A stretch of 64,000 nt of DNA, taken from positions 248,001 through 312,000 of the forward strand of contig MHZT01000034.1 in assembly GCA_001828855.1 (NCBI GenBank), in the 5' to 3' direction. The translations under genes and the position numbers were made by a program. Under the pieces are notes generated by a model. The model was not told the DNA's origin and made no database searches. It saw only the letters and a program-made list of their open reading frames with translations. Every line of letters begins with the position of its first letter. Within the stretch, counting starts at the first letter, position 1. Below are positions 6,347 through 22,589 of this stretch, one piece after another. The stretch is from Rhodobacterales bacterium RIFCSPHIGHO2_02_FULL_62_130. GTDB taxonomy: Bacteria; Pseudomonadota; Alphaproteobacteria; Rhodobacterales; Rhodobacteraceae.

Positions 6347-7135
6347 TTAGACATGGGCCTCCTCCTTCAATTTGTTCTTCAGGCCGGTGCCAAGATAGGC
6401 CTCGATCACCCGCTCGTTGTTTTTGACTTCATCGACCGTGCCTTGCGCCAGAACCTTGCCCTCGGCCATGCAGATCACCGGATCACAGAGGCGTCCGATG
6501 AAATCCATGTCATGCTCGATCACGCAGAAGGTATAGCCGCGTTCCTTGTTCAGCCGCACAATCGCGTCGCCGATGGTGTTCAGCAGAGTGCGGTTCACGC
6601 CTGCGCCCACTTCGTCCAGAAACACGATCTTGGCATCCACCATCATGGTGCGCCCCAGTTCCAGCAGCTTTTTCTGCCCGCCCGAGATGTTCGAAGCGCG
6701 CTGGTCGGCCAGATGCGAGATGGTCAGGAACTCCAGCACCTCATCGGCCTTGTCACGGATGCGGCGCTCTTCCTCGGCCACTGCCCCGCGGCGGAAGCAG
6801 GCGTTGAACAGCGATTCCCCCGATTGGCGCGCTGGCACCATCATCAGGTTTTCGCGCACCGTCATGCTGCCGAATTCATGCGCGATCTGGAAGGTCCGCA
6901 GCAGGCCCTTGGCGAATAGTTCATGCGGCGGCAGGCCGGTGATATCCTCACCATCCATCATCACGCGCCCCGAGGTCGGCGGCAGACGCCCCGCGATCAC
7001 GTTGAACAGCGTGGTCTTGCCCGCCCCGTTCGGCCCGATCAACCCTGTGATCGATCCGGTCTTGATCTCCAGCGATGCACCGTCAACGGCATGGAAGCCG
7101 CCGAAATGCCTGTGAAGGTTTTCGACAACAATCAT
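6347..7135 (-). CDS. livG: ABC transporter ATP-binding protein (LivG family)
   Basis: 262 residues. Walker A is GPNGAGKTT, the signature loop is NISGGQKKLLELGR, and the switch histidine is in CVIEHDMDF. The Walker B end reads FLDEVGAGV, with Val where most ABC proteins have Pro (DEP). The catalytic Glu is kept, so activity is expected. It works with LivF and the permeases; the binding-protein gene is upstream in the same direction. The start at 7135 (MIVVENLHRHFGG) fits the family N-terminus. Confidence 0.93.
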   Translation of the reverse strand: MIVVENLHRHFGGFHAVDGASLEIKTGSITGLIGPNGAGKTTLFNVIAGRLPPTSGRVMMDGEDITGLPPHELFAKGLLRTFQIAHEFGSMTVRENLMMVPARQSGESLFNACFRRGAVAEEERRIRDKADEVLEFLTISHLADQRASNISGGQKKLLELGRTMMVDAKIVFLDEVGAGVNRTLLNTIGDAIVRLNKERGYTFCVIEHDMDFIGRLCDPVICMAEGKVLAQGTVDEVKNNERVIEAYLGTGLKNKLKEEAHV

Positions 7136-7256
7136 CTGTTATCCCCCTGCGATGGCGCCTCTTGTCAGCGGTAACACCGCTGCGGGCTGCCTTTTCTATG
7201 GCAACGGCCCGAGGTCAAGCCCCGGGCCGCGTCCAATTTACGAACCTAGCCGAAAA

Positions 7257-10213: not shown

Positions 10214-10365
10214 GATGCGACCTGTTTGTGTCGTTTATGGCGCAAGGAAACAGGAAAATCGGCGGCCCGCAAGGCCATTCCCGCCATCATCGCAGCTTTC
10301 GCCCTTTGCATTGCCGCTTATTTTTTCTATACCGCGCTCCGATACCGCTAACGGAGGGATACCCC

Positions 10366-11736
10366 ATGACCAAGGGTTGGACGAAATCGGACTGGCGCGC
10401 GAAACCCCGTGTGCAGATGCCCGATTACCCCGATACTGCCGCACTCAACGCCGCCGAGGCGCAGCTGGCCAAGTATCCTCCGCTGGTATTTGCGGGCGAG
10501 GCGCGCAAGCTGAAAAAGCAACTGGCTTTGGCAGCCGAGGGCAAAGCCTTCCTGCTGCAAGGCGGCGACTGCGCCGAAAGCTTTGCCGAGTTCTCTGCCG
10601 ACAACATCCGCGACACCTTCCGCGTGATGCTGCAAATGGCGGTCGTGCTGACCTATGGCGCGAAAGTTCCCGTGATCAAGGTGGGCCGCATGGCAGGCCA
10701 ATTCGCCAAGCCGCGTTCCGCCCCCACCGAAGTGATCGGCGGCGTCGAATACCCGTCCTACCGCGGTGACATCATCAACGGCTTTGACGCCACGGTCGAG
10801 GCACGCCAGCCCGATCCGCAGCGCATGCTGCAGGCCTATACCCAAGCCGCCGCCAGCCTGAACCTGCTGCGCGCGTTTTCCACCGGCGGTTTTGCCGATA
10901 TCCACCGTGTCCATTCTTGGACCCTTGGCTTTGCCGAACATGACAAGGCCGAACGTTACCGTGAGTTGTCGAACCGCATCTCTGACGCGCTCGATTTCAT
11001 GAACGCCGCAGGCGTGAACGCCGAAACCGCGCATACGCTGTCCACCGTCGATTTCTACACCAGCCACGAATCCTTGCTGCTGGAATATGAAGAGGCGCTT
11101 TGCCGCGTCGACAGCATCACCGGCCAGAACGTCGCAGGTTCCGGCCATATGATCTGGATCGGCGACCGCACCCGTCAGCCCGACGGCGCGCATGTCGAAT
11201 TCGCGCGCGGCGTGCTGAACCCGATCGGGTTGAAATGCGGCCCCACCACCACCGCCGACGACCTCAAGGTGCTGATGGCCAAGCTGAACCCGCAGAACGA
11301 GGCGGGACGCCTGACCCTGATCGCGCGCTTTGGCGCGGGCAAGGTCGGCGATAACCTGCCGCGCCTGATCAAGGCCGTTCAGGAAGAAGGCGCCAACGTC
11401 GTCTGGTCCTGCGATCCGATGCATGGCAACACCATCAAGGCGGCCTCGGGCTATAAGACCCGTCCGTTTGAATCGGTGCTGCGCGAGGTTCGCGAATTCT
11501 TCCAGATCCACAAGGCCGAAGGCACCATCCCCGGCGGCGTGCATTTTGAAATGACGGGTCAGGACGTGACCGAATGCACCGGTGGCCTGCGCGCCGTGCT
11601 GGATGAGAATCTGGCCGACCGCTATCACACCGCCTGCGATCCGCGCCTGAACGCATCGCAATCACTGGAACTGGCATTCCTTGTGTCCGAAGAACTGTCC
11701 TCGCAACGCGAACAGGCCCGCCGCGTCGCACTTTGA
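10366..11736 (+). CDS. aroG: Class II 3-deoxy-7-phosphoheptulonate (DAHP) synthase
   Basis: 456 residues. It catalyses the first step of the shikimate pathway, condensing phosphoenolpyruvate with erythrose 4-phosphate. Hallmarks of the plant-like class II enzyme are all present: [40 protein letters not shown] and [10 protein letters not shown]. The ATG at 10366 is chosen over upstream in-frame codons because acggaggg sits just before it and [14 protein letters not shown] is the usual family N-terminus. It is monocistronic. The later pathway genes aroK and aroB are also in the window but 45 kb away. Confidence 0.95.
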
Positions 11737-12680: not shown

Positions 12681-13580
12681 ATGACCATCTCGATGACCGG
12701 ATTCGCCGCCGCCCGCGGGCAGGGCGCGGGGCATAGCTGGGCTTGGGACATCCGCGCGGTCAACGGCAAGGGGCTGGATTTGCGCCTGCGCGTGCCGGAC
12801 TGGATTGATGGCCTTGAACTTGCGCTGCGCGGCGAACTCTCGCGCGCCCTGCAACGCGGCAATGTCAGCCTGTCGCTCAAGGTCGCCCGCGATGGTCTGG
12901 CCGATGGGGCCGAGGGCATGCGGGTGAACACCCCCGCGCTGGCCTCTGTTCTGGCCGCGCTGAAGCAGGTCGAAGACGCCGCGATGGCCGCAGGAGTCAC
13001 GCTGGGCCAGCCGACAGGCGCCGATGTTCTGGCGGTGCGGGGGGTGCTGGACACCTCCTCCGCCGAGATCGACACCGCCCCCCTGCGCGCCGCCATCCTT
13101 GCCGATCTGCCCGCATTACTGCGTGATTTCAACATGATGCGCGCCGCCGAAGGGGCCGCCCTGCACAGCGTCATCACCGGCCAGCTTGACCGCATCGCCA
13201 CCCTTGCTGCCGATGCCGCGACCGAGGCCCAGGCCCGCCGCGACGCCGCAGCCACCACCCTGCGCGACGCCCTGACCCGCGTTCTGGCCAATGCCGAGGG
13301 TGTGGACGAAACGCGCCTCGCGCAGGAACTTGCGCTGATCGCGGTGAAAAACGACGTGACCGAAGAACTCGACCGCCTTTCGGCCCATGTCGATGCCGCC
13401 CGTTTGCTTTTGGCAGAATCCGCCCCCGTGGGCCGCAAATTCGATTTCCTGATGCAGGAATTCATGCGCGAGGCCAATACGCTCTGTTCCAAATCGCAGG
13501 CGCTTGCCCTGACCCGCATCGGGCTTGACCTTAAGACGGTGATAGACCAAATGCGCGAACAGGTTCAAAACGTGGAATAA
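12681..13580 (+). CDS. yicC: YicC family endoribonuclease-like protein
   Basis: 299 residues beginning [14 protein letters not shown], the conserved YicC N-terminus. It ends with [14 protein letters not shown]...[19 protein letters not shown], the conserved C-terminal domain. YicC proteins are RNases implicated in RNA turnover and stationary-phase survival. The ATG at 12681 follows gcaggag. It precedes gmk by 4 bp, and a yicC-gmk pair is a common arrangement, so co-transcription is expected. Confidence 0.93.
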
Positions 13581-13584
13581 ATCA

Positions 13585-14217
13585 ATGCGCCGTGGGCTTT
13601 TGCTGATCCTCTCCTCTCCTTCCGGCGCTGGCAAATCGACGCTGGCGCGGCGGTTGATGTCGTGGGACCGGACCATCCGCTTTTCGGTCTCGGCCACCAC
13701 CCGCCAACCCAGACCGGGCGAGGAAGACGGGCGCGAATATTACTTCCGTTCGCGCGAGGTCTTTGAAACCATGGTGAAAACCGGCGAGATGTTGGAACAT
13801 GCCGAGGTGTTCGGCAACCTTTACGGATCGCCCAAAGGTCCGGTCGAGGCCGCGATGAAAGAGGGGCGCGATACGCTCTTTGACATCGACTGGCAGGGCG
13901 GCCAGCAGATCCGCAATTCGTCCTTGGGCCGTGATGTGGTGTCGATCTTTGTGCTGCCGCCCTCGATTGCCGAACTTGAATCCCGCCTGCGGGGCCGCGC
14001 GCAGGACAGCGATGAGGTGATCGCAGGCCGCATGGCGAAAAGCCGCGACGAAATCAGCCATTGGGCCGAATATGACTATGTGATCGTCAATCGCGATATT
14101 GATACTGCTTTCAATGAGTTGACGACCATTCTTCAAGCAGAGCGCCTGAAACGCGACCGCCAGCCTGACCTGTCGGAATTCGTCCGCACCCTGAACACCG
14201 AGTTTGCATCCCGATGA
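13585..14217 (+). CDS. gmk: Guanylate kinase
   Basis: 210 residues. It converts GMP and ATP to GDP and ADP. The P-loop is [10 protein letters not shown] (about residues 9-18), followed by [21 protein letters not shown], the GMP-binding region with conserved Arg and Tyr. [11 protein letters not shown] is also present. The length is normal for the family. The gene lies 4 bp after yicC, and its stop overlaps the start of the carbonic anhydrase-like gene by 4 bp (ATGA). Confidence 0.97.
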
Positions 14218-14732
14218 TCTATTCCCTTGACGGCATCGCCCCCGAAATCGGCCCCGAAGCTTGGGTCGCCGACACCGCCGTTCTGATCGGCAAGATCGTG
14301 CTGGAGGCGGGCGCGAACATCTGGTTCGGTGCGGTCTTGCGCGGCGATAATGAGGAAATCCGCGTTGGCGCTGGATCAAATGTGCAAGAAAACAGCGTCT
14401 TGCACACCGACATGGGCTATCCGCTGACCATCGGCGCGAACTGCACCATCGGCCACAAGGCGATGCTGCACGGCTGCACCATTGGCGAAGGCTCGCTGAT
14501 CGGGATGGGGGCCACGGTGCTGAATGGCGCAAAGATCGGGCGCGGTTGCCTGATCGGGGCGGGCGCGCTGATCACCGAAGGCAAAGAGATTCCAGACGGG
14601 TCGCTGGTGATGGGCAGCCCCGGCAAGGTGGTGCGAGTCTTGGATGCCGAAGCACAGGCGCGGCTTCTGAAATCCGCCGCAGGCTACCGCGCCAATGCGG
14701 CGCGCTTTGCCAAGGGATTGAAGCTGCTTTAG
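14214..14732 (+). CDS. Gamma-class carbonic anhydrase family protein (left-handed beta-helix)
   Basis: 172 residues of hexapeptide repeats forming a left-handed beta-helix, with a short C-terminal helix. Candidate zinc ligands H64, H81 and H86 occur in SVLHTD and IGHKAMLHG, with spacing like that of Cam-type gamma-carbonic anhydrases. Many members of this clade (YrdA, PaaY, CaiE relatives) lack demonstrated carbonic anhydrase activity, so hydration of CO2 is possible rather than certain. The gene overlaps gmk by 4 bp and ends the yicC-gmk operon. Confidence 0.88.
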
Positions 14733-14742
14733 AAAATCAAAA

Positions 14743-14760
14743 GGGGGCCATGTGGCCCCC
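14743..14760 (-). terminator. Terminator of the DUF1127 gene, shared with the convergent operon
   Basis: A perfect 8-bp stem (gggggcca/tggccccc) with a 2-bp centre. On the minus strand it is followed by a T-rich tract, as expected for intrinsic termination of the DUF1127 transcript. It also lies 10 bp after the carbonic anhydrase-like stop on the plus strand. Confidence 0.75.
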
Positions 14761-14785
14761 TATCCGTCGCATCTGTCGGGCAGGT

Positions 14786-14947
14786 TTAGCCCCAGACAGC
14801 CTTGCGGGCGATGAGGTGTGCATCTTCGGGGAAGATGCCCAGATCAAGGGCCACACGGCGCTCCATACCGGCGATCTCGTCGCGGGTGCGGCGGTAAAGC
14901 GCGCGTTTTGCAGCAGCTTCACGCAGTTGGGCAATGATCGATTTCAT
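14786..14947 (-). CDS. DUF1127 small basic protein
   Basis: 53 residues: begins MKSIIAQLREAAAKRALYRR, continues TRDEIAGMERRVALDLGIF and ends ARKAVWG. This is the DUF1127 pattern, a short Arg-rich helix pair followed by a LGI/LGL-type motif. In Rhodobacter relatives DUF1127 proteins are RNA-binding factors that influence stress small-RNA processing, and in agrobacteria they affect phosphate and carbon metabolism. It lies downstream of gap behind its own terminator. A gcgctaaca-type palindrome like those near the gap genes lies about 75 bp upstream of its start. Confidence 0.85.
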   Translation of the reverse strand: MKSIIAQLREAAAKRALYRRTRDEIAGMERRVALDLGIFPEDAHLIARKAVWG

Positions 14948-15021
14948 GGTCTTTCCTTTCGTCGTCGCGATGGTTGGCCCGAATGGCTTTCCCCTTTCGC
15001 ATGGTCAGAATATAGGAATGA

Positions 15022-15035
15022 TGCTTGCGCTAACA
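15022..15035. promoter_or_regulatory. GCGCTAAC-core operator-like site upstream of DUF1127
   Basis: The 14-mer tgcttgcgctaaca differs at one position from the site at 16183-16196 before gap and closely matches both arms of the inverted repeat before the second gap gene. The recurrence suggests one regulator acting on this cluster. Confidence 0.55.
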
Positions 15036-15090
15036 ACGCACGATGCTGCGGTGCGGCATTGCGTCCAGCGCATAGCTTCTCGCCAAGAAA

Positions 15091-15117
15091 AAAAGGGCCA
15101 CCCGAAGGCGACCCTTT
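15091..15117 (-). terminator. Intrinsic terminator after gap
   Basis: On the minus strand a GC-rich stem with a TTCG loop (agggtcgcc / ggtggccct, one mismatch) is followed by an uninterrupted run of T. It starts 24 bp after the gap stop codon, so it should end the gap transcript before the DUF1127 promoter region. Confidence 0.85.
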
Positions 15118-15141
15118 GAAAATCCAGCGGATTATCTGTGC

Positions 15142-16143
15142 TTAGATCAGTTTCCCCATCGCCACAGCCGTATCAGCCATGCGGTTCGAGAAGCCCCACT
15201 CATTGTCATACCAGGACAGAATCCGAACCATCGTGCCTTCCATGACCTTGGTCTGGTCCATGTGGAATACCGACGAATGCGGGTCATGGTTGAAGTCCGA
15301 AGACACATTCGGCTGGTCGGTAAAGCCAAGAATCCCCTTCAAAGACCCGTTTGCCGCAGCACGGATGGCGTCATTCACCTCGGCCACCGTCGTTTCGCGC
15401 ATGGCTTCGAACACCAGATCCACCACGGAGACGTTCGGCGTCGGCACACGGATGGCCACACCGTCCAACTTGCCCTTCAACTCGGGCAACACCAGACCCA
15501 CGGCCTTGGCAGCACCCGTCGAGGTCGGGATCATCGACAAGGCAGCAGCCCGCCCGCGATAGAGATCCTTGTGCATGGTATCCAGCGTCGGCTGGTCGCC
15601 GGTATAGCTGTGGATCGTGGTCATAAAGCCGCGCTTGATGCCGATGGCGTCGTTCAGCACCTTGGCCACCGGAGACAGGCAGTTGGTGGTGCAGGAGGCA
15701 TTCGACACCACAATATCAGCCGAAGTCAAAGTGTTATGGTTCACACCGTAAACGATGGTCTTGTCCGCGCCATCGCCGGGGGCCGAGATCAGCACCCGCT
15801 TTGCGCCATTCTCAAGATGCGGCAGGCATTTTTCCTTGCTGGTGAAAATGCCGGTGCATTCCATCACCACGTCGATGTGGCCCCAAGGCAGATCAGCCGG
15901 ATTGCGGATTGCCGTTACCATGATCGGGCCACGACCGACATCGATGCTGTCCGCCGTGGTCGTCACGGTCGCCGGAAACCGGCCATGCACCGAATCAAAG
16001 CGCAGCAGATGCGCGTTGGTCTCCACCGGTCCCAGATCGTTGATCGCGACCACCTCGATATCGGTGCGGCCCGATTCGATGATCGCGCGCAGCACGTTGC
16101 GGCCAATACGGCCAAACCCATTGATGGCAACCTTGACGGTCAT
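15142..16143 (-). CDS. gap: Glyceraldehyde-3-phosphate dehydrogenase (type I), first copy
   Basis: 333 residues. It interconverts glyceraldehyde 3-phosphate and 1,3-bisphosphoglycerate. It has the NAD-binding [10 protein letters not shown] motif, the catalytic Cys in [10 protein letters not shown] and the His in [10 protein letters not shown]. Asp36 in VVAINDLG is present, which favours NAD+. The start at 16143 gives the canonical [11 protein letters not shown]; upstream in-frame codons to 16203 are unlikely. It is the last of three minus-strand genes (second gap, 47-residue protein, this gene), with a candidate operator at 16183-16196 and its own terminator. Confidence 0.96.
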
Positions 16144-16182
16144 AGCAATCCTCCTGAAATCCAAGCGCGACTCACGCGCGGA

Positions 16183-16196
16183 TGCTAGCGCTAACA
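16183..16196. promoter_or_regulatory. GCGCTAAC-core palindrome upstream of gap
   Basis: tgctagcgctaaca, an almost symmetric 14-mer located 40-53 bp upstream of the gap start codon. It resembles LacI-family operators. In Rhodobacter the LacI-type regulator CceR controls central carbon genes and, from memory, binds a TTAGCGCTAA-like palindrome. Assignment to CceR is inference. Confidence 0.6.
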
Positions 16197-16236
16197 TCAT
16201 CAAAACGACGAAAAACTCAACGGCAGTTTGTGCCGT

Positions 16237-16380
16237 TTAGCGCCAGAATGAAACAAATTCGATAAGGTCAGTCAGTTTTTGCAACAGAAAGAACGACGCA
16301 ACAGCGTCGTTCAGCGTCACATCAGCCAGAATTGCGGCCGCAATCGTGGCGGCCATCACCAAAGCTATTCGGTCAGTCAC
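16237..16380 (-). CDS. 47-residue membrane-type protein between the two gap genes (GTG start)
   Basis: Starts with GTG at 16380, 10 bp after the stop of the upstream gap copy. The whole spacer is cggaggggtc, an excellent ribosome-binding site, which supports this unusual start. The protein opens with a hydrophobic segment (TDRIALVMAATIAAAILAD) followed by TLNDAVASFFLLQKLTDLIEF and ends FWR. It has one or two membrane-associated helices and a charged tail. No domain is known to me, although similar short ORFs ending in FWR occur in related genomes to the best of my recollection. Co-translation with gap suggests a role linked to it, not shown. Confidence 0.75.
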   Translation of the reverse strand: MTDRIALVMAATIAAAILADVTLNDAVASFFLLQKLTDLIEFVSFWR

Positions 16381-16390
16381 GACCCCTCCG

Positions 16391-17389
16391 TTATTGGAGG
16401 AGCCGCCCCATCACGCCAGCCACGTCGGCCATGCGGCAAGAGAAGCCCCATTCATTGTCATACCATGCCAGAACGCGGACAAGTTTGCCCACAACTTTGG
16501 TTTGGTCAGGGGCGAAGATAGACGAATAGGACGTGTGATTGAAGTCGATCGAGACCTTCGGCTCGGGGTCGTAAGACATTACCATGCCCATGTAACCCGC
16601 AGCGGCCTCGCGCACGATCTCGTTGACCTCGTTCACGGTCACCGATTTGCCCGCCACGAAGGTCAGATCGACGGCCGAGACGTTGGGGGTCGGCACGCGG
16701 ATGGCCGAGCCGTCCAGCTTGCCCGCCAGTTCCGGCAGCACCTCGCCAATCGCCTTGCCGGCACCGGTCGAGGTGGGGATCATCGCCATGGCCGCCGCGC
16801 GGGCGCGATACAGGTCCTTGTGGCGGCGGTCCAGCGTCGGCTGGTCGCCGGTATAGCTGTGAATGGTGGTCATCACGCCGGCTTCGATGCCGATGGTATC
16901 ATTCAGCACCTTGGCCAGCGGGGCAAGGCAGTTGGTGGTGCAAGAGGCGTTGGAAACCACCAGATGCTCCAGCCCCAACTGGCGGTGGTTCACGCCGTAA
17001 ACCACGGTCTTGTCGGCGCGCTTGGCGGGGGCGGACACCAGAACCCGCTTGGCCCCGCGCCCCAGATGGACGGCGGCCTTGTCGCGGTCATTGAACTTGC
17101 CGGTGCATTCCAGCACCACATCCACCCCGTCCCAGTCCAGTTCCTCGGGGTTGTAGGTGGACATCACGCGGATCGGGCCACGGCCAAGGTCAAGCTCGTT
17201 GCCCGACACTTTCACCACCCCCGGAAAGCGGCCATGCACCGAGTCGTATTTCAGCAGATGCGCGTTGGTCTCGATCGGCCCTGTCGCATTGATTGCCACC
17301 ACCTGCACATCGTTGCGCGCGCTTTCGGCGATATGCGCCAGCGTGCAGCGCCCGATGCGTCCGAAACCGTTGATGCCGATGGTGATCAT
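16391..17389 (-). CDS. gap: Glyceraldehyde-3-phosphate dehydrogenase (type I), second copy
   Basis: 332 residues, clearly paralogous to the copy at 15142-16143. It keeps [10 protein letters not shown] and [10 protein letters not shown], so the active site is intact. The cofactor loop differs: VVAINATG has Ala35 where the first copy has Asp36. Loss of this Asp in other GAPDHs allows NADP+ use, so this copy may be the biosynthetic or Calvin-cycle type enzyme; that is an inference. The start at 17389 gives MITIGINGFG. A strong inverted repeat lies about 90-115 bp upstream. It is the first gene of a small operon with the 47-residue protein. Confidence 0.95.
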   Translation of the reverse strand: MITIGINGFGRIGRCTLAHIAESARNDVQVVAINATGPIETNAHLLKYDSVHGRFPGVVKVSGNELDLGRGPIRVMSTYNPEELDWDGVDVVLECTGKFNDRDKAAVHLGRGAKRVLVSAPAKRADKTVVYGVNHRQLGLEHLVVSNASCTTNCLAPLAKVLNDTIGIEAGVMTTIHSYTGDQPTLDRRHKDLYRARAAAMAMIPTSTGAGKAIGEVLPELAGKLDGSAIRVPTPNVSAVDLTFVAGKSVTVNEVNEIVREAAAGYMGMVMSYDPEPKVSIDFNHTSYSSIFAPDQTKVVGKLVRVLAWYDNEWGFSCRMADVAGVMGRLLQ

Positions 17390-17474
17390 CTTGCGTCCCT
17401 TTGCTGTCTGGATAGCTTGGGCTATAGCGAAGCAGAACTGGTCGGGAAAGTCGAAAAACGACACAAATTCATGG

Positions 17475-17507
17475 TGTTAGCGCAAACTTGCGCTGTTTGC
17501 GCTAACT
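17475..17507. promoter_or_regulatory. Inverted pair of GCGCTAAC-core sites upstream of the second gap gene
   Basis: Two 12-bp arms (gttagcgcaaac and its exact complement) separated by 7 bp, at 17476-17487 and 17495-17506. Each arm by itself also matches the single sites at 15022 and 16183. It lies in the divergent region between gap and the DUF808 gene, where a tetrameric or cooperative repressor could act on both. Confidence 0.7.
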
Positions 17508-17594
17508 GGTTGCGCCAACACCTTGCCAAGCCGCCTTTGCCTTTGGCCCCGTCAGCCCTTACATAGACCAAAGTCAAAAACGAACGGGGCAGGG

Positions 17595-18566
17595 ATGAGC
17601 GGATTACTCGCACTTTTGGACGATGTGGCGGCGATTGCCAAGGTGGCGGCGGCTTCGGTCGATGATATTGCGGCGGCGGCGGCCAAGGCTGGGGCCAAGG
17701 CGGCGGGGGTGGTGATCGACGATGCCGCCGTGACGCCGAAGTATGTGCATGGATTCGAGGCAAAGCGCGAATTGCCGATCATCTGGCGCATCGCGCTTGG
17801 CTCGGTGAAGAACAAGCTGGTGATCCTGCTGCCCGGCCTTCTGGCGCTGAATTACGTCCTGCCGCAGGCGATCACGCCCTTGCTGATGATCGGCGGGGCC
17901 TATCTGTGCTTTGAGGGCGCGGAGAAGGTCTATCACGTTCTGGCCCCGCATGGCGATGCGGCGGTCGAGGAAGATTACGACACCAAGGACGCTGCCCATC
18001 TGGAAGAGGAAAAGGTCGCAGGCGCGATCAAGACCGATTTCATCCTGTCCGCCGAGATCATGACGATTGCGCTTGCCACCGTCGAAAGCCCCAGCTTCTG
18101 GATGCAGGCGGTCACGCTGGCGGTTGTCGGCATCTTCATCACCGCCGCCGTTTATGGCGCGGTTGCGCTGATCGTGAAGATGGACGACATCGGCCTGCAC
18201 ATGGCCGCCAACCGCAAAACCGCCGCCGCCCGCGCCTTTGGCCGGGGCCTTGTCGTCGCCATGCCGAAACTGATGAGCCTGCTCTCCACCGTCGGCACGC
18301 TGGCGATGTTGTGGGTGGGCGGCAATATCGTCATCCACGGCATGGAGGTGCTGGGTCTGCACGAGCCTTACGGCACCATCCACAATCTGGCGGTCGCGGC
18401 AGCGGCGCTGGTGCCGCAGGCGGCAGGATTTGTCGAATGGGCCGTCACAGCGGCTTGTGACGGCGTGCTGGGGCTGATCCTTGGCGTGGCGCTGATCCCG
18501 CTTGCGACGCGGGTGATCGGGCCGGTTCTGGCGGCGGTAACGGGCAAGAAAAAAGCCGCGCATTAA
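17595..18566 (+). CDS. DUF808 (YedI-like) inner membrane protein
   Basis: 323 residues. It begins MSGLLALLDDVAAIAKVAAASVDDIAAAA, the conserved DUF808 N-terminus. VHGFEAKRELPIIWRIALGS and GGAYLCFEGAEKVYH are also family-typical, and several hydrophobic segments follow. The biochemical role of the family is not known. It is transcribed away from the gap genes. Its stop codon lies inside a strong terminator hairpin. Confidence 0.9.
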   Translation: MSGLLALLDDVAAIAKVAAASVDDIAAAAAKAGAKAAGVVIDDAAVTPKYVHGFEAKRELPIIWRIALGSVKNKLVILLPGLLALNYVLPQAITPLLMIGGAYLCFEGAEKVYHVLAPHGDAAVEEDYDTKDAAHLEEEKVAGAIKTDFILSAEIMTIALATVESPSFWMQAVTLAVVGIFITAAVYGAVALIVKMDDIGLHMAANRKTAAARAFGRGLVVAMPKLMSLLSTVGTLAMLWVGGNIVIHGMEVLGLHEPYGTIHNLAVAAAALVPQAAGFVEWAVTAACDGVLGLILGVALIPLATRVIGPVLAAVTGKKKAAH

Positions 18567-18577
18567 GCGCGGCTTTT
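18551..18577 (+). terminator. Intrinsic terminator of the DUF808 gene
   Basis: An 11-bp perfect stem (aaaagccgcgc / gcgcggctttt) with a 5-base loop, overlapping the stop codon and ending in a T-run. The A-run on the other arm makes it potentially bidirectional. Confidence 0.9.
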
Positions 18578-18585
18578 GGGTGGGA

Positions 18586-18836
18586 GTCGGGGTGAACCCC
18601 GACCTACAAGCGCGTCGTAGGGCGGGTTCACCCCGCCAGATCCCGCACCACCCCGCCATACAATCTCACACCGCACCCGTAGGGCGGGGTTCACCCCGCC
18701 ACTATTTGTTTCGCGATCATCGGGCGCAAAATGGCAACGGCCGCGCGGGTGGCGCGGCCGTTTCGGATGAGTCGGGGCGAACCCCGATTACGCGTGGATT
18801 GCGTTGGGTGGGAGTCGGGGTGAACCCCGACCTACG
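18586..18836. repeat. Cluster of five palindromic intergenic repeats (family A) plus a hairpin
   Basis: Copies at 18586-18607, 18617-18638, 18679-18702, 18771-18792 and 18814-18836 share the gg(c/t)gaaccccg or ggttcacccc core with the cluster at 11742-11892, in both orientations. A separate perfect 11-bp hairpin with a 5-base centre is at 18736-18762. Together they occupy the gap between the DUF808 and tkt stop codons; no gene is seen there. Confidence 0.9.
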
Positions 18837-18865
18837 CCAACCGATCACCCCGCCAAACGCGGCCC

Positions 18866-20923
18866 TTACAACAGCGACTTCACCGTCGCGACGGCATTCT
18901 CTGCCGTGATGCCAAACTCCTTGTAAAGCCGCTCCATCGGGGCCGACGCGCCAAAGCTGGACATGCCGACAAAGCCTGCCTTGCCATCGCGGCCACGCTC
19001 GCCCAACAGCCAGCGATCCCAGCCCTGACGCACGCCCGCTTCGATTGCCACGCGCACGGGGCCTGCGGGCAGCACCTTCTTGCGATAGGCTTCGTCCTGC
19101 GCGGCAAACAGCTCCATGCAGGGCATGGACACCACACGGGTGCCAATGCCTTCGGCCTCAAGCGCCTCACGGGCCTTCAGCGCGATCTCCACCTCGGACC
19201 CCGTGGCCATCAGGATCACCTGACGCTTGCCCGTGGCCTCGGCCAGCACATAGGCCCCCTTGGCCGAGAGGTTGGTATTGGTATGAACCTTGCGCACCGT
19301 CGGCAGGTTCTGACGCGACAGCGCCAGCACCGAAGGCGTGGTTTTCTGCGTGAAGGCAATCTCCCAAGCCTCGGCCACTTCGACCAGATCGGCAGGGCGG
19401 AACACCAGCGTGTTCGGAGTCGCACGGCTGATCGCCAGATGCTCGACCGGCTGGTGCGTCGGGCCATCCTCGCCCAGACCGATGGAGTCATGCGTCATCA
19501 CATAAACCACCGGCACACCCATCAGCGCCGACAGACGCATGGAAGGCCGCGCATAGTCGGTAAAGCACATGAAGGTGCCGGAATAGGGCCGCACGCCGCC
19601 ATGCAGCGCCATGCCGTTCATCGCCGCCGCCATCCCGTGTTCGCGGATGCCGTAATAGACATAGCGGCCCTTGCGGTCCTCAACGCCAAACACGCCCAGA
19701 TCGGCGGTCTTGGTGTTGTTCGATCCGGTCAGGTCAGCCGATCCCCCGATGGTCTCGGTCAGAATCGGGTTCACCGCTGCCAGCACCTTTTCGCTTGCCG
19801 AACGGGTCGCCAGCTTGGGCGCATCCGCCGAAGCCGCCTTCTTCACCGCGCGCACGGCACCGGCCAACTTTGCCGGCGCGTCACCTGCGAAAATCCGCGC
19901 AAATTCTGCCTGCTTGGCCGCTGACAGCGCGCCCAGACGGGCCTTCCATTCCGCATGGGCCGCAGCGCCCCGCGCGCCAAAAGCCTCCCACTGCGCCTTT
20001 ACATCAGCGGGAATTTCAAACGCCGCATAGGGCCAGCCGTAAGACTCTTTCGCGGCCTTCATCTGCGCCGCATCGGTCAGCGCGCCGTGGCCCTTCGAGG
20101 TGTCCTGCGCGGCATGACCCAGCGCGATATGCGTCTTGCAGTCAATCAGGGCAGGGCGCGGGCTGGCCTTGGCCGCCGTGATCGCGCGGTCGATATCCAC
20201 CGGATCATGGCCGTCACAGGAGAACACATCCCAACCCGAGGCCGCAAAGCGCGCGCGTTGGTCGGTGATGTCCGACAGCGACACCTTGCCGTCAATGGTG
20301 ATACCGTTGTTGTCCCACATTACGATCAGACGCGACAGCGCCTGCTTACCCGCCAAAGCGATGGCTTCCTGCGAAACACCTTCCATCAAGCAACCGTCTC
20401 CGGCGATGACATAGGTGTAGTGATCCTGAATCTTCGCACCCCAACGCGCGCGCAGGTTTTCCTCGGCAATCGCGAAACCGACAGCATTGGCAATGCCCTG
20501 ACCCAGCGGGCCGGTCGTCGTCTCAACGCCTGCAACGTGACCATATTCCGGATGGCCCGCCGTGATCGCACCCCACTGGCGGAAGTTCTTGATCTGCTCC
20601 AGCGTCATGTCGGCATAGCCGGTCAGATACAGCAGCGAATAGATCAGCATAGACCCATGCCCCGCCGACAGGATGAACCGGTCGCGGTCTTCCCAGCGCG
20701 GGGCCTTGGGATCAAACTTCAGATGCTTTTCAAACAGAACCGTTGCCACATCTGCCATGCCCATCGGCATGCCCGAATGGCCGGAATTCGCCGCCGCCAC
20801 CGCGTCAAGCGTCAAGGTGCGGATCGCGCAGGCGCGCATCCAGTGATCGGGGTGGCTCGCGCGAAGGGATTGAATGTCCAAGGCCGTGATCCTGTTCCTG
20901 AAGGGCTGGGGTTGCGGCTGCAT
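18866..20923 (-). CDS. tkt: Transketolase
   Basis: Up to 685 residues. This thiamine diphosphate enzyme of the pentose phosphate (and, where present, Calvin) pathway moves two-carbon units between sugar phosphates. It shows [13 protein letters not shown], the cofactor motif GDGCLMEG, and the pyrimidine-domain segment [15 protein letters not shown]. The ATG at 20923 gives a 14-residue leader ([14 protein letters not shown]) not expected in the family. A TTG at 20881, giving (M)[13 protein letters not shown], would match usual transketolase N-termini and follows an agga. The start is therefore uncertain. It neighbours the gap genes functionally and is divergent from the zapA operon. Confidence 0.96.
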
Positions 20924-20992
20924 AGCACCCTATGCGGCAAGATCAAGCACGCGCGGCAAGCTGTTGTTCGGAAAGGGGCGGTCAGCGCCGCA

Positions 20993-21006
20993 GCATTGCG
21001 CTAAGA
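20993..21006. promoter_or_regulatory. Weak GCGCTAA-type site in the tkt upstream region
   Basis: gcattgcgctaaga matches the sites near the gap genes in the central tgcgctaa but deviates at the end. It lies between the divergent tkt and coiled-coil genes. It is listed because tkt would be a sensible co-regulated target; on its own it could be chance. Confidence 0.3.
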
Positions 21007-21082
21007 TCAACTTCAGGACGGTCTGCGGCGATTCGCTTTGCGGGCCTTGACGTGACTTGGACGACAGAAAGGGCGAAAGCCG

Positions 21083-21577
21083 ATGCAGCAGATCGCGGAA
21101 CTTGAACGACGGATCACAGCCGCGCTGGAACGTATCGGGCGTGGGGTGGACGGTCTTGCCGCGCAACCCGGACCGATCACCGGCATCGACCCCGAAGACG
21201 TCGCCCGCCTGAACGAGGCGCTGGACGAAGAACGCATGGCCAACGCGCAACTCTCCGAACGCCTGCGCGCCGTGCGCGACAAAGAGGCGGAAACCAAAGC
21301 CGCGCTGAACGCCCGCATCGCCGATCTGACCCGTCAGGACGAAGAGCGCGGGTCCGAGTTGAACCGCCTGCGCCGCACCGTCGCCCATCTGACCGACGAA
21401 ATTTCCGCCCTGCGTGCCACGGCTCAGAGTGGTTTGGCCGATCCTGCCCAGATCAACCGCGCGCTTCTGGCCGAACTTTCGGCCCTGCGTGCCACCCGCG
21501 CCGCCGAGGCTGCCGAACTGGCCGATATCGTCGCCGCCCTGAACCCGCTGATCGAAGAGGCCCGCACCCATGCCTGA
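21083..21577 (+). CDS. Coiled-coil protein of unknown function encoded with ZapA
   Basis: 164 residues, mostly charged heptad-like helix from about residue 45 to 145 (LNEALDEERMANAQLSERLR and similar). The N-terminal helix is MQQIAELERRITAALERIGRG. No signal peptide or membrane segment. The 3' end overlaps zapA by 8 bp, so the two are translationally coupled. By context it may act in cell division or be a ZapA partner, comparable to the ZapB role, but no sequence homology to ZapB is claimed. Confidence 0.85.
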   Translation: MQQIAELERRITAALERIGRGVDGLAAQPGPITGIDPEDVARLNEALDEERMANAQLSERLRAVRDKEAETKAALNARIADLTRQDEERGSELNRLRRTVAHLTDEISALRATAQSGLADPAQINRALLAELSALRATRAAEAAELADIVAALNPLIEEARTHA

Positions 21578-21941
21578 TCTGGAAATCACCATCGGGGGCC
21601 GTGCCTTCTCGGTTGCCTGCCAGCCCGGCGAGGAACATTTCCTGCGCTCTGCCGCCCAGATGCTGGATACCGAAGCCCAACCCCTGCTGGCCCAGCTTGG
21701 CCGCCTTCCCGAAGCCCGCATGCTGCTGATGGCGGGTCTGATGCTTGCCGACAAGACGGCGGCGGTCGAGGATGAGAATCGCACGCTGAAGGCCAAGGTT
21801 GCCGAACTTGAATCGCGGCCGGCGGTCGAAAAGGAAAAGGTCGAAGTGCCGGTGATCCCGCCCGCCGTCACCGAAACGCTGGCCGAAATCGCAGCCCGTG
21901 CCGAGGCGCTTGCCGCCAAACTGGAAGAATCCCGCGCCTGA
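21570..21941 (+). CDS. zapA: Cell division protein ZapA
   Basis: 123 residues. MPDLEITIGGRAFSVACQPGEEHFLRSAAQMLD is the typical ZapA N-terminal beta-hairpin and helix, followed by MLLMAGLMLADKTAAVEDENRTLKAKVAELE, the dimerisation coiled coil. ZapA binds FtsZ and stabilises the Z-ring. The C-terminal tail is longer than in E. coli, as often in alphaproteobacteria. It is the second gene of a two-gene operon. The downstream hairpin at 21951-21973 is followed by a cccttaacctt tract. Confidence 0.9.
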   Translation: MPDLEITIGGRAFSVACQPGEEHFLRSAAQMLDTEAQPLLAQLGRLPEARMLLMAGLMLADKTAAVEDENRTLKAKVAELESRPAVEKEKVEVPVIPPAVTETLAEIAARAEALAAKLEESRA

Positions 21942-21950
21942 AACAAAAAA

Positions 21951-21973
21951 GGGCCGCATGAAACGCGCGGCCC
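21951..21973 (+). terminator. Probable terminator after zapA
   Basis: A 7-bp GC stem (gggccgc / gcggccc) with a 9-base loop, preceded by a run of A and followed by a weak T-containing tract, 10 bp after the zapA stop. Confidence 0.6.
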
Positions 21974-21990
21974 CCTTAACCTTAATTCTT

Positions 21991-22018
21991 CCCCCGATCC
22001 TCTTCGTAAAAATATCCC
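21991..22018. repeat. 28-bp intergenic repeat (family B), copy 1
   Basis: cccccgatcctcttcgt followed by A-rich sequence and tatccc. It matches the reverse complement of 29580-29609 with one mismatch over 28 bp. It lies between zapA and glutaredoxin and is followed by two further perfect hairpins at 22030-22052 (10-bp stem, 3-base loop) and about 22056-22073 (poly-G/poly-C stem). Confidence 0.85.
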
Positions 22019-22081
22019 GGGGGGAAGGCTGTGTTTTCTGCAAGAAAACACAGGCTGGGGGGCTGGCCCCCCGACACGGCC

Positions 22082-22444
22082 TCACCCAGCGTTGGCCTCA
22101 CGGATTTTCTCGGCGGCCGCCTTGTCATAAGCCACGCCATTGGCCTCGAACAGCGCATCCAGCTCGCCCGAAAGCGTCATCTCGGTGACAATGTCGCAGC
22201 CGCCGACGAACTCGCCTTTGACATAAAGCTGCGGGATCGTCGGCCAGTCCGAGAAATCCTTGATGCCCTGACGGATTTCCGCATCGGCCAGCACGTTCAC
22301 ATCGGCGAACTCGACGCCCATGTAATTCAGCACGCCTGCGACGCGGGACGAGAACCCGCATTGCGGCATCATCTTGGTGCCTTTCATGAACAGCACCACA
22401 TCGTTCTTCTGTACAGTCTCGCGGATTTGGTCCTGCGCGCTCAT
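22082..22444 (-). CDS. grxD: Monothiol glutaredoxin (Grx4 family)
   Basis: 120 residues starting at MSAQDQIRETVQKNDVVLFMKG; the ATG at 22444 is preferred to the in-frame one at 22495. The active site is PQCGFS, followed by WPTIPQLYVKGEFVGGCDI. These are hallmarks of monothiol CGFS glutaredoxins, which bind and deliver [2Fe-2S] clusters, often in a heterodimer with BolA. bolA lies just upstream on the same strand, separated only by a 35-codon ORF, which supports that partnership. Confidence 0.96.
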   Translation of the reverse strand: MSAQDQIRETVQKNDVVLFMKGTKMMPQCGFSSRVAGVLNYMGVEFADVNVLADAEIRQGIKDFSDWPTIPQLYVKGEFVGGCDIVTEMTLSGELDALFEANGVAYDKAAAEKIREANAG

Positions 22445-22481
22445 CTTTTTATCCTCGGGGTTCGGTGTTTCGTCGAATGTC

Positions 22482-22589
22482 TTAAACGGCGGCAAATATC
22501 TGGAAGGGCAGGGCGATCAGACGACCCAGATCGGCACCGCCCTGACCCAGCCAGATCAGCATTGCCGCCCATGGGTCAATCTCGACCAT
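22482..22589 (-). CDS. Small ORF (35 residues) between bolA and glutaredoxin
   Basis: Starts 2 bp after the bolA stop codon and encodes MVEIDPWAAMLIWLGQGG, then ADLGRLIALPFQIFAAV. It is amphipathic to hydrophobic with one likely membrane-associating helix. The tight spacing suggests translational coupling with bolA and grxD. No family is recognised; conservation elsewhere would be needed to be confident. Confidence 0.5.
   Translation of the reverse strand: MVEIDPWAAMLIWLGQGGADLGRLIALPFQIFAAV

Follow-up and report, generated by a model that had tools for sequence, protein, structure and literature searches.

Two type I glyceraldehyde-3-phosphate dehydrogenase (GAPDH) genes, here called gap1 and gap2, lie side by side with a small DUF1127-like gene in a 64,000-nucleotide stretch of the genome of Rhodobacterales bacterium RIFCSPHIGHO2_02_FULL_62_130 (contig MHZT01000034.1, positions 248,001 to 312,000). 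This whole stretch is the window analyzed here. All three genes are preceded by similar 14-base palindromes. Does a single regulator control them, and if so in which direction? An earlier note on this DNA had proposed that one regulator of the CceR type co-controls both gap copies, the DUF1127-like gene and possibly tkt. The proposal can be upheld for both gap copies and the DUF1127-like gene but not for tkt. We consider it likely that the sites are operators of CceR (GapR), the switch between glycolysis and gluconeogenesis of the Rhodobacteraceae, acting by the mechanism set out below.

CceR/GapR corresponds to RSP_1663, which was predicted to be a LacI-family regulator with the motif [A/G/T]GTT-N6-8-AAC[A/C/T] (PMC4344238). 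Under the name GapR it was given a predicted regulon across 13 Rhodobacteraceae genomes, with gapA, gapB, edd-eda, zwf-pgl-pgi, fba, eno, pykA, pckA and others as targets (PMC4052901). Both gap genes are therefore already published as predicted targets. CceR has been reported to sense gluconate-6-phosphate (6-phosphogluconate) as ligand (PMC5507952), and in Paracoccus it reportedly represses glycolytic enzymes and activates gluconeogenic enzymes, PckA and Fba both falling in the cceR mutant (PMC11323563).

Operators in the gap cluster

The sequences tgcttgcgctaaca and tgctagcgctaaca, put forward as operators of the DUF1127-like gene and of gap1, were found letter-exact at the positions given in Table 1, and the inverted pair claimed upstream of gap2 is present there as two mirrored 14-bp sites. 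A third and weaker gap2 site, absent from the earlier note, has one base in common with its neighbor. All positions of the window were scored with a symmetric matrix built from 107 sites in the gap1, DUF1127 and cceR promoters of relatives, with the window's own genome excluded; the ranks are listed in Table 1. The pattern TGTTNGCGCNAACA has five matches in the window with at most one mismatch, every one of them inside the gap/DUF1127 cluster. With at most two mismatches there are 10 matches versus 3.55 expected, a number reached in none of 100 shuffles. The bare core GCGCTAA is not enriched in the window (7 occurrences versus 5.22 expected), and was rejected as evidence by itself. The gap1 and gap2 sites fit the published CceR/GapR motif; the DUF1127-like site TGTTAGCGCAAGCA deviates from it in one half-site.

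A weak site had also been claimed for tkt. Five of its 14 letters differ from the consensus (counted by eye), and within 250 bases upstream of 18 tkt orthologues no site of three or fewer mismatches was found. On these results and the matrix score and rank of the claimed site (Table 1), tkt was rejected as a target.

The candidate regulator and its regulon

There are 15 LacI genes above the Pfam cut-off in the genome. The motif occurs in the 400 bases upstream of just one of them (G000:C30), where there are two sites; all the others have at least five mismatches. We take the product of this gene to be a candidate CceR, and the presumed equivalent of RSP_1663. Its best NCBIfam match is the gluconate repressor GntR, with 289.8 bits against a cut-off of 400. 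Orthologues of at least 63% identity are found in 125 of 148 relatives, each relative coming from a different genus. A site of two or fewer mismatches was counted at 16 of 30 cceR loci, where the gene of this genome was entered as site-less despite its two sites, the start having been projected too far upstream.

A scan of the 4.97 Mb genome with TGTTAGCGCTAACA, allowing two mismatches, returned 23 places. Equal frequency inside coding regions, which had been suggested as an observation that would count against operators, was not what we found. On reading the flanking open reading frames, 18 sites lie upstream of genes, three are within coding sequence (PEMT-type, MFS-type and glutamyl-tRNA synthetase genes) and two are unassigned; the open reading frames that overlap the sites of pyk and of the dehydrogenase lack a Pfam match and were treated as spurious. 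The upstream sites include those of the central carbon genes edd, zwf, pyk, glpX, a DeoC/LacD aldolase gene adjoining pgk and a pfkB-type sugar kinase gene. Further sites precede genes for an aldo/keto reductase, a 2-hydroxyacid dehydrogenase and a GH13 enzyme, glgP, and, within the window, the gene of a branched-chain amino acid ABC ATPase. The remaining ones belong to the LacI gene (two), gap1, gap2 (two), the gap-linked DUF1127 gene and a separate CcaF1-like gene. In addition, pckA has a tandem pair of sites with three mismatches each. A single site is found at fba. The glycolytic, Entner-Doudoroff and gluconeogenic genes of a CceR/GapR-type regulon are thus represented by edd, zwf, pyk, the aldolase, glpX, pckA, gap1, gap2 and the sugar kinase. 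A looser pattern, TGNTNGCGCNANCA with one mismatch, gave 283 places genome-wide versus 215 for its reversed control, and was too loose for use.

The sites follow the candidate regulator across the relatives. Near-perfect sites (at most one mismatch) number on average 2.2 in the 125 genomes with the LacI versus 0.52 in the 23 without it, and the mean for a reversed-pattern control is flat (0.70 versus 0.83). None of the 11 gap1 genes sampled from the 23 genomes without it has a site of three or fewer mismatches. The gap-type DUF1127 gene was found in 52 of the 125 genomes with the LacI and in none of the 23 without. These data bear on the possibility that another LacI-family protein, recognizing a similar CG-centered palindrome, binds the sites in place of CceR. 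LacI operators are alike, the genome offers 14 further LacI genes, and the product of one of them (G000:C36) is 44% identical to the candidate. Yet the candidate alone carries the motif in its own promoter, near-perfect sites track its presence across the 148 relatives, and the targets overlap the CceR/GapR list. We therefore regard binding by another LacI as very improbable, and CceR as the likely occupant of these sites.

Conservation of the operators in relatives

A lack of conservation upstream of orthologues had been named as a further observation that would speak against operators; the sites are conserved at all three genes. For the gap genes we used stretches from 49 relatives with the LacI, taken from the 51 with a gap2 of at least 76% identity (75-76% for the last one, G127; copies of lower identity were excluded). 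gap1 could be resolved in 36 of the 49 stretches and the other 13 were left out. A site of two or fewer mismatches precedes gap1 in 35 of the 36 orthologues. All 49 gap2 promoters have a site of three or fewer mismatches, 28 of them of two or fewer, and 48 of the 49 have two or more sites (at most four mismatches), a layout that none of 60 scrambled palindromes produced in more than 4 of 49. When the letters of the palindrome were scrambled, matches of at most two mismatches were found in a mean of no more than 0.3% of promoters, and in no more than 5.9% for any one scramble and promoter set. Some genomes are present twice in the scrambled-palindrome set for gap1 and DUF1127; the counts of 35/36 for gap1 and of 28/45 for DUF1127 (below) are deduplicated. 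Among named gap1 loci, which include many from Rhizobiales, 18 of 79 have a site of two or fewer mismatches.

The DUF1127-like gene was sampled as 59 copies in 52 relatives, of which nine were excluded for an unresolved start, leaving 50 copies in 45 relatives. Counted by relative, 28 of 45 have a site of three or fewer mismatches (22 with at most two, six with three). Counted by copy, 24 have at most two mismatches, seven have three and 19 have four or more; for the 24 copies adjoining gap1 the corresponding numbers are 14, five and five. Scrambled palindromes at these promoters gave 0.3% on average and 4.8% at most, with at most two mismatches. Six of the 66 DUF1127 matches have no row of their own, and in G034 the scored copy is site-free while its tandem neighbor has a site. 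Three relatives (L156, L158 and L171) have two gap-type DUF1127 genes in tandem, with the operator in the upstream 250 bases of the first copy only.

The DUF1127-like gene and its promoter

The DUF1127-like protein matches PF06568 with an E value of 0.0022, its bit score (Table 1) being under the gathering cut-off of 23.3. Eight of its residues are arginine (counted by eye), and its alignment with relatives (A1) shows proteins of ~50 residues, arginine-rich and with a DLGI-type core. PF06568 is matched at E 0.01 by nine of the 20 members of this alignment, two of the 20 being other DUF1127 paralogues from the genome of the window that were added as references. Five other genes of the genome reach the PF06568 cut-off. 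No small RNAs of the CcsR type, as in a CcaF1-type locus, were seen behind the gene, and a terminator-like hairpin lies directly 3' of it. No Rfam match at gathering score was found in 13000-22500, in a database for which the presence of a CcsR family is not established. DUF1127 proteins have been reported to bind RNA in some cases and protein in others, for example sensor kinases such as PhoR (PMC12501420), and so RNA binding is one option among several for the protein studied here.

In this genome the −35 hexamer of the promoter-like sequence TTGTTA-16-TATATT overlaps the operator; the promoter scan of the stretch found two promoter-like sites versus 1.1 expected. The overlap allows for the DUF1127 site being a piece of core promoter that matches the matrix by chance. 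However, 19 of the 31 site-bearing copies lack the T before TG, and hence the TTGTTA −35, and still keep the palindrome. Moreover, 28 of the 31 sites are located 40-125 bases upstream of the start, at a variable distance. A chance match to a −35 element is thus a most unlikely origin for the site, which we continue to read as a CceR operator.

The separate CcaF1-like DUF1127 gene (at G000:C40; locus L338, G000:C40:211200-214000) has TGTTACCCCTAACA upstream, the center of which deviates from the CceR consensus. At a homologue in G104 (L330), TGTTTCCGTTAACA occupies a similar position.

Promoter layout and the direction of control

The two GAPDH enzymes differ at the coenzyme position (Table 1). 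The gap1 product has DL there in 34 of 36 orthologues (two not parsed), and that of gap2 has AT, AP or AS in 46 of 49 (three not parsed). In GAPDH, loss of the Asp at this position accompanies the use of NADP. gap2 therefore probably encodes the gluconeogenic enzyme, and gap1 would by its sequence be of the NAD type.

The promoters differ as well. In 27 of 35 promoters of relatives (41 of 54 when named loci and the window are added), TTGA begins at an offset of exactly 24 bases ahead of the gap1 site, and with this −35-like element at a fixed distance ahead of it the operator would cover the −10 region. At gap2, the distance between the two gene-proximal sites is 19-20 or 29-31 bases in 38 of 48 relatives. 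These two spacing classes differ by about a turn of the helix. In 37 of 67 promoters a −10-like motif follows the proximal gap2 site at 59-63 bases. A tandem layout like that of gap2 precedes pckA in 25 of 29 relatives, with a spacing of 20-21 in 23 of the 25. The pckA promoters (L343-L372) have tandem near-direct repeats with a spacing of 20-21 bases; these repeats, such as TGGTTGCGCTAA, are a palindrome variant in which one half is weak.

A site over the −10 region of gap1 as against tandem arrays upstream of gap2 and pckA suggests opposite actions, with gap1 repressed and gap2 and pckA activated. The layout in this genome also suggests repression of the DUF1127-like gene, the weakest-founded of these directions. 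In the mechanism that we propose, a CceR dimer would bind the palindrome TGTTAGCGCTAACA and stay on the DNA while sugar is scarce. Bound CceR would cover the −10 region at gap1 and, in this genome, the −35 at the DUF1127-like gene, and keep both off; as a tandem array upstream of the gap2 promoter it would aid RNA polymerase. Accumulation of 6-phosphogluconate, the ligand named in the literature, would release CceR, so that gap1 and gap2 would switch in opposite senses and the small protein would be made along with gap1.

A number of observations weigh against this interpretation. Those on direction favor a different assignment, in which CceR binds the operators and acts alike on all three genes, or in the reverse way on one of them. 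The directions are deduced from position alone. A simple rule by which arrays are activated and single sites repressed is not clean, because Fba falls in the Paracoccus mutant (PMC11323563) yet fba has a single site here. The −10-like motif of gap2 is not universal at its spacing. At the DUF1127-like gene the overlap of operator and −35 is not general: the T before TG is found in 12 of the 31 site-bearing copies, and together with a −10-like motif behind it in five (G121, G028, G077, G022 and G111). On the other side stand the fixed offset between TTGA and the gap1 site, the −10-like motifs at 59-63 bases in more than half of the gap2 promoters, and the tandem layout of pckA, whose product is lowered in the Paracoccus mutant (PMC11323563). 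A different direction for at least one gene is accordingly doubtful, if a serious contender, and we retain repression of gap1 and activation of gap2.

The other observations concern the sites themselves. At three mismatches the genome-wide count for the consensus, 86, is below that for the reversed control, 167, possibly due to the CGCG core of the reversed pattern; near-perfect sites, scrambled palindromes and the matrix were therefore used instead. No site of three or fewer mismatches was found in one of the 36 gap1 promoters or in the DUF1127-like promoters of 17 of the 45 relatives, and at least three mismatches were counted at gap1 of R. capsulatus, R. aestuarii and five Paracoccus. G090, in which no LacI orthologue was detected, has four near-perfect sites elsewhere in its genome. 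Shared ancestry may explain part of the differences that accompany the LacI, since the genomes that lack it may be a few lineages.

Other features of the window

Two further sites rank high with the matrix. TGTCAGCGGTAACA at 7163-7176 (rank 5) is 28 bases upstream of the branched-chain amino acid ABC ATPase gene (6347-7135, − strand) and possibly marks it as a further CceR target. CGATACCGCTAACG at 10340-10353 (rank 6) ends 12 bases short of the start codon, the ATG at 10366, of a class II DAHP synthase (PF01474), an enzyme whose substrates are phosphoenolpyruvate and erythrose-4-phosphate. A gene for a DUF808 membrane protein (PF05661, 17595-18566) occupies the other strand in the interval from gap2 to tkt, a position kept in many named relatives.

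Table 1. Features of the gap cluster in window coordinates. Matrix ranks are among the 63,987 positions scored.
Feature	Positions	Strand	Matrix rank	Details
Terminator-like hairpin after DUF1127-like gene	14742..14761	−		
DUF1127-like gene (P0001)	14786..14947	−		53 aa; translation; PF06568 18.1 bits; matches in 52/148 relatives
Promoter-like TTGTTA-16-TATATT of DUF1127-like gene	15009..15036	−		−35 hexamer overlaps operator; promoter scan
DUF1127-like operator (candidate)	15022..15035		4	TGTTAGCGCAAGCA when read on − strand; 88 bases upstream of start codon
Terminator-like hairpin between gap1 and DUF1127-like gene	15092..15117	−		3' of gap1
gap1, type I GAPDH	15142..16143	−		NDL at coenzyme position; TIGR01534
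gap1 operator (candidate)	16183..16196		1	TGTTAGCGCTAGCA when read on − strand
gap1 −35-like TTGAGT	16215..16220	−		24 bases upstream of operator start
gap2, type I GAPDH	16391..17389	−		NAT at coenzyme position (Asp replaced); TIGR01534
gap2 −10-like TATAGC	17421..17426	−		62 bases after proximal operator start
gap2 operator, proximal (candidate)	17475..17488		joint 2	
gap2 operator, middle (candidate)	17494..17507		joint 2	19 bases from proximal
gap2 operator, distal, weaker (candidate)	17507..17520		7	13 bases beyond middle
Claimed tkt site, not an operator	20993..21006		221	score −2.5; 0/18 orthologues

Relation to known systems

The system resembles the CceR/GapR regulon in its palindrome, its LacI regulator and its autoregulation (PMC4052901, PMC4344238, PMC11323563), and in the targets edd, zwf, gapA, gapB, pykA, pckA, fba and a sugar kinase. 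The DUF1127-like gene and glpX set it apart from the published target lists, and the tandem arrays at gap2 and pckA from the published accounts, in the portions of these that were available. FruR/Cra of enteric bacteria differs from CceR in operator and ligand. It too is a switch of the LacI family, repressing genes of glycolysis and activating those of gluconeogenesis, but belongs to another orthologous group (PMC4052901).

With CcaF1, the DUF1127 RNA-binding protein of R. sphaeroides, the protein shares its very small size and its likeness to DUF1127; unlike CcaF1, which has 71 residues (PMC10253847), it has 53, falls below the Pfam cut-off and shows no array of small RNAs behind its gene. 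In Brucella, DUF1127 genes are also under a regulator of carbon metabolism; this is VtlR, of the LysR type and with a motif other than that of the sites described here (PMC12595884). DUF1127 and CceR were not found together in the literature searched, a search that did not extend to the CceR chromatin immunoprecipitation target list and supplementary tables, where the target may be present. In one paper that has both DUF1127 and GAPDH, GAPDH appears, in the portions available, as a quantitative PCR reference only. The DUF1127-like gene thus appears to be a new target of a known regulon.

Some DUF1127 proteins are reported to bind sensor kinases. It is conceivable, although we think it improbable, that CceR couples sugar status to a DUF1127 protein, the gap-linked one, with a tuning role in phosphate uptake. 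If it were true, gap1 and the small protein would be released together, and across much of the Rhodobacteraceae the supply of phosphate would keep pace with what glycolysis demands. In any case, a small protein whose function is disputed would come under a metabolic switch with a ligand named in the literature, making its role testable. The position and spacing of the sites also provide a layout by which a single repressor/activator could control the adjacent gap1 and gap2 in opposite senses.

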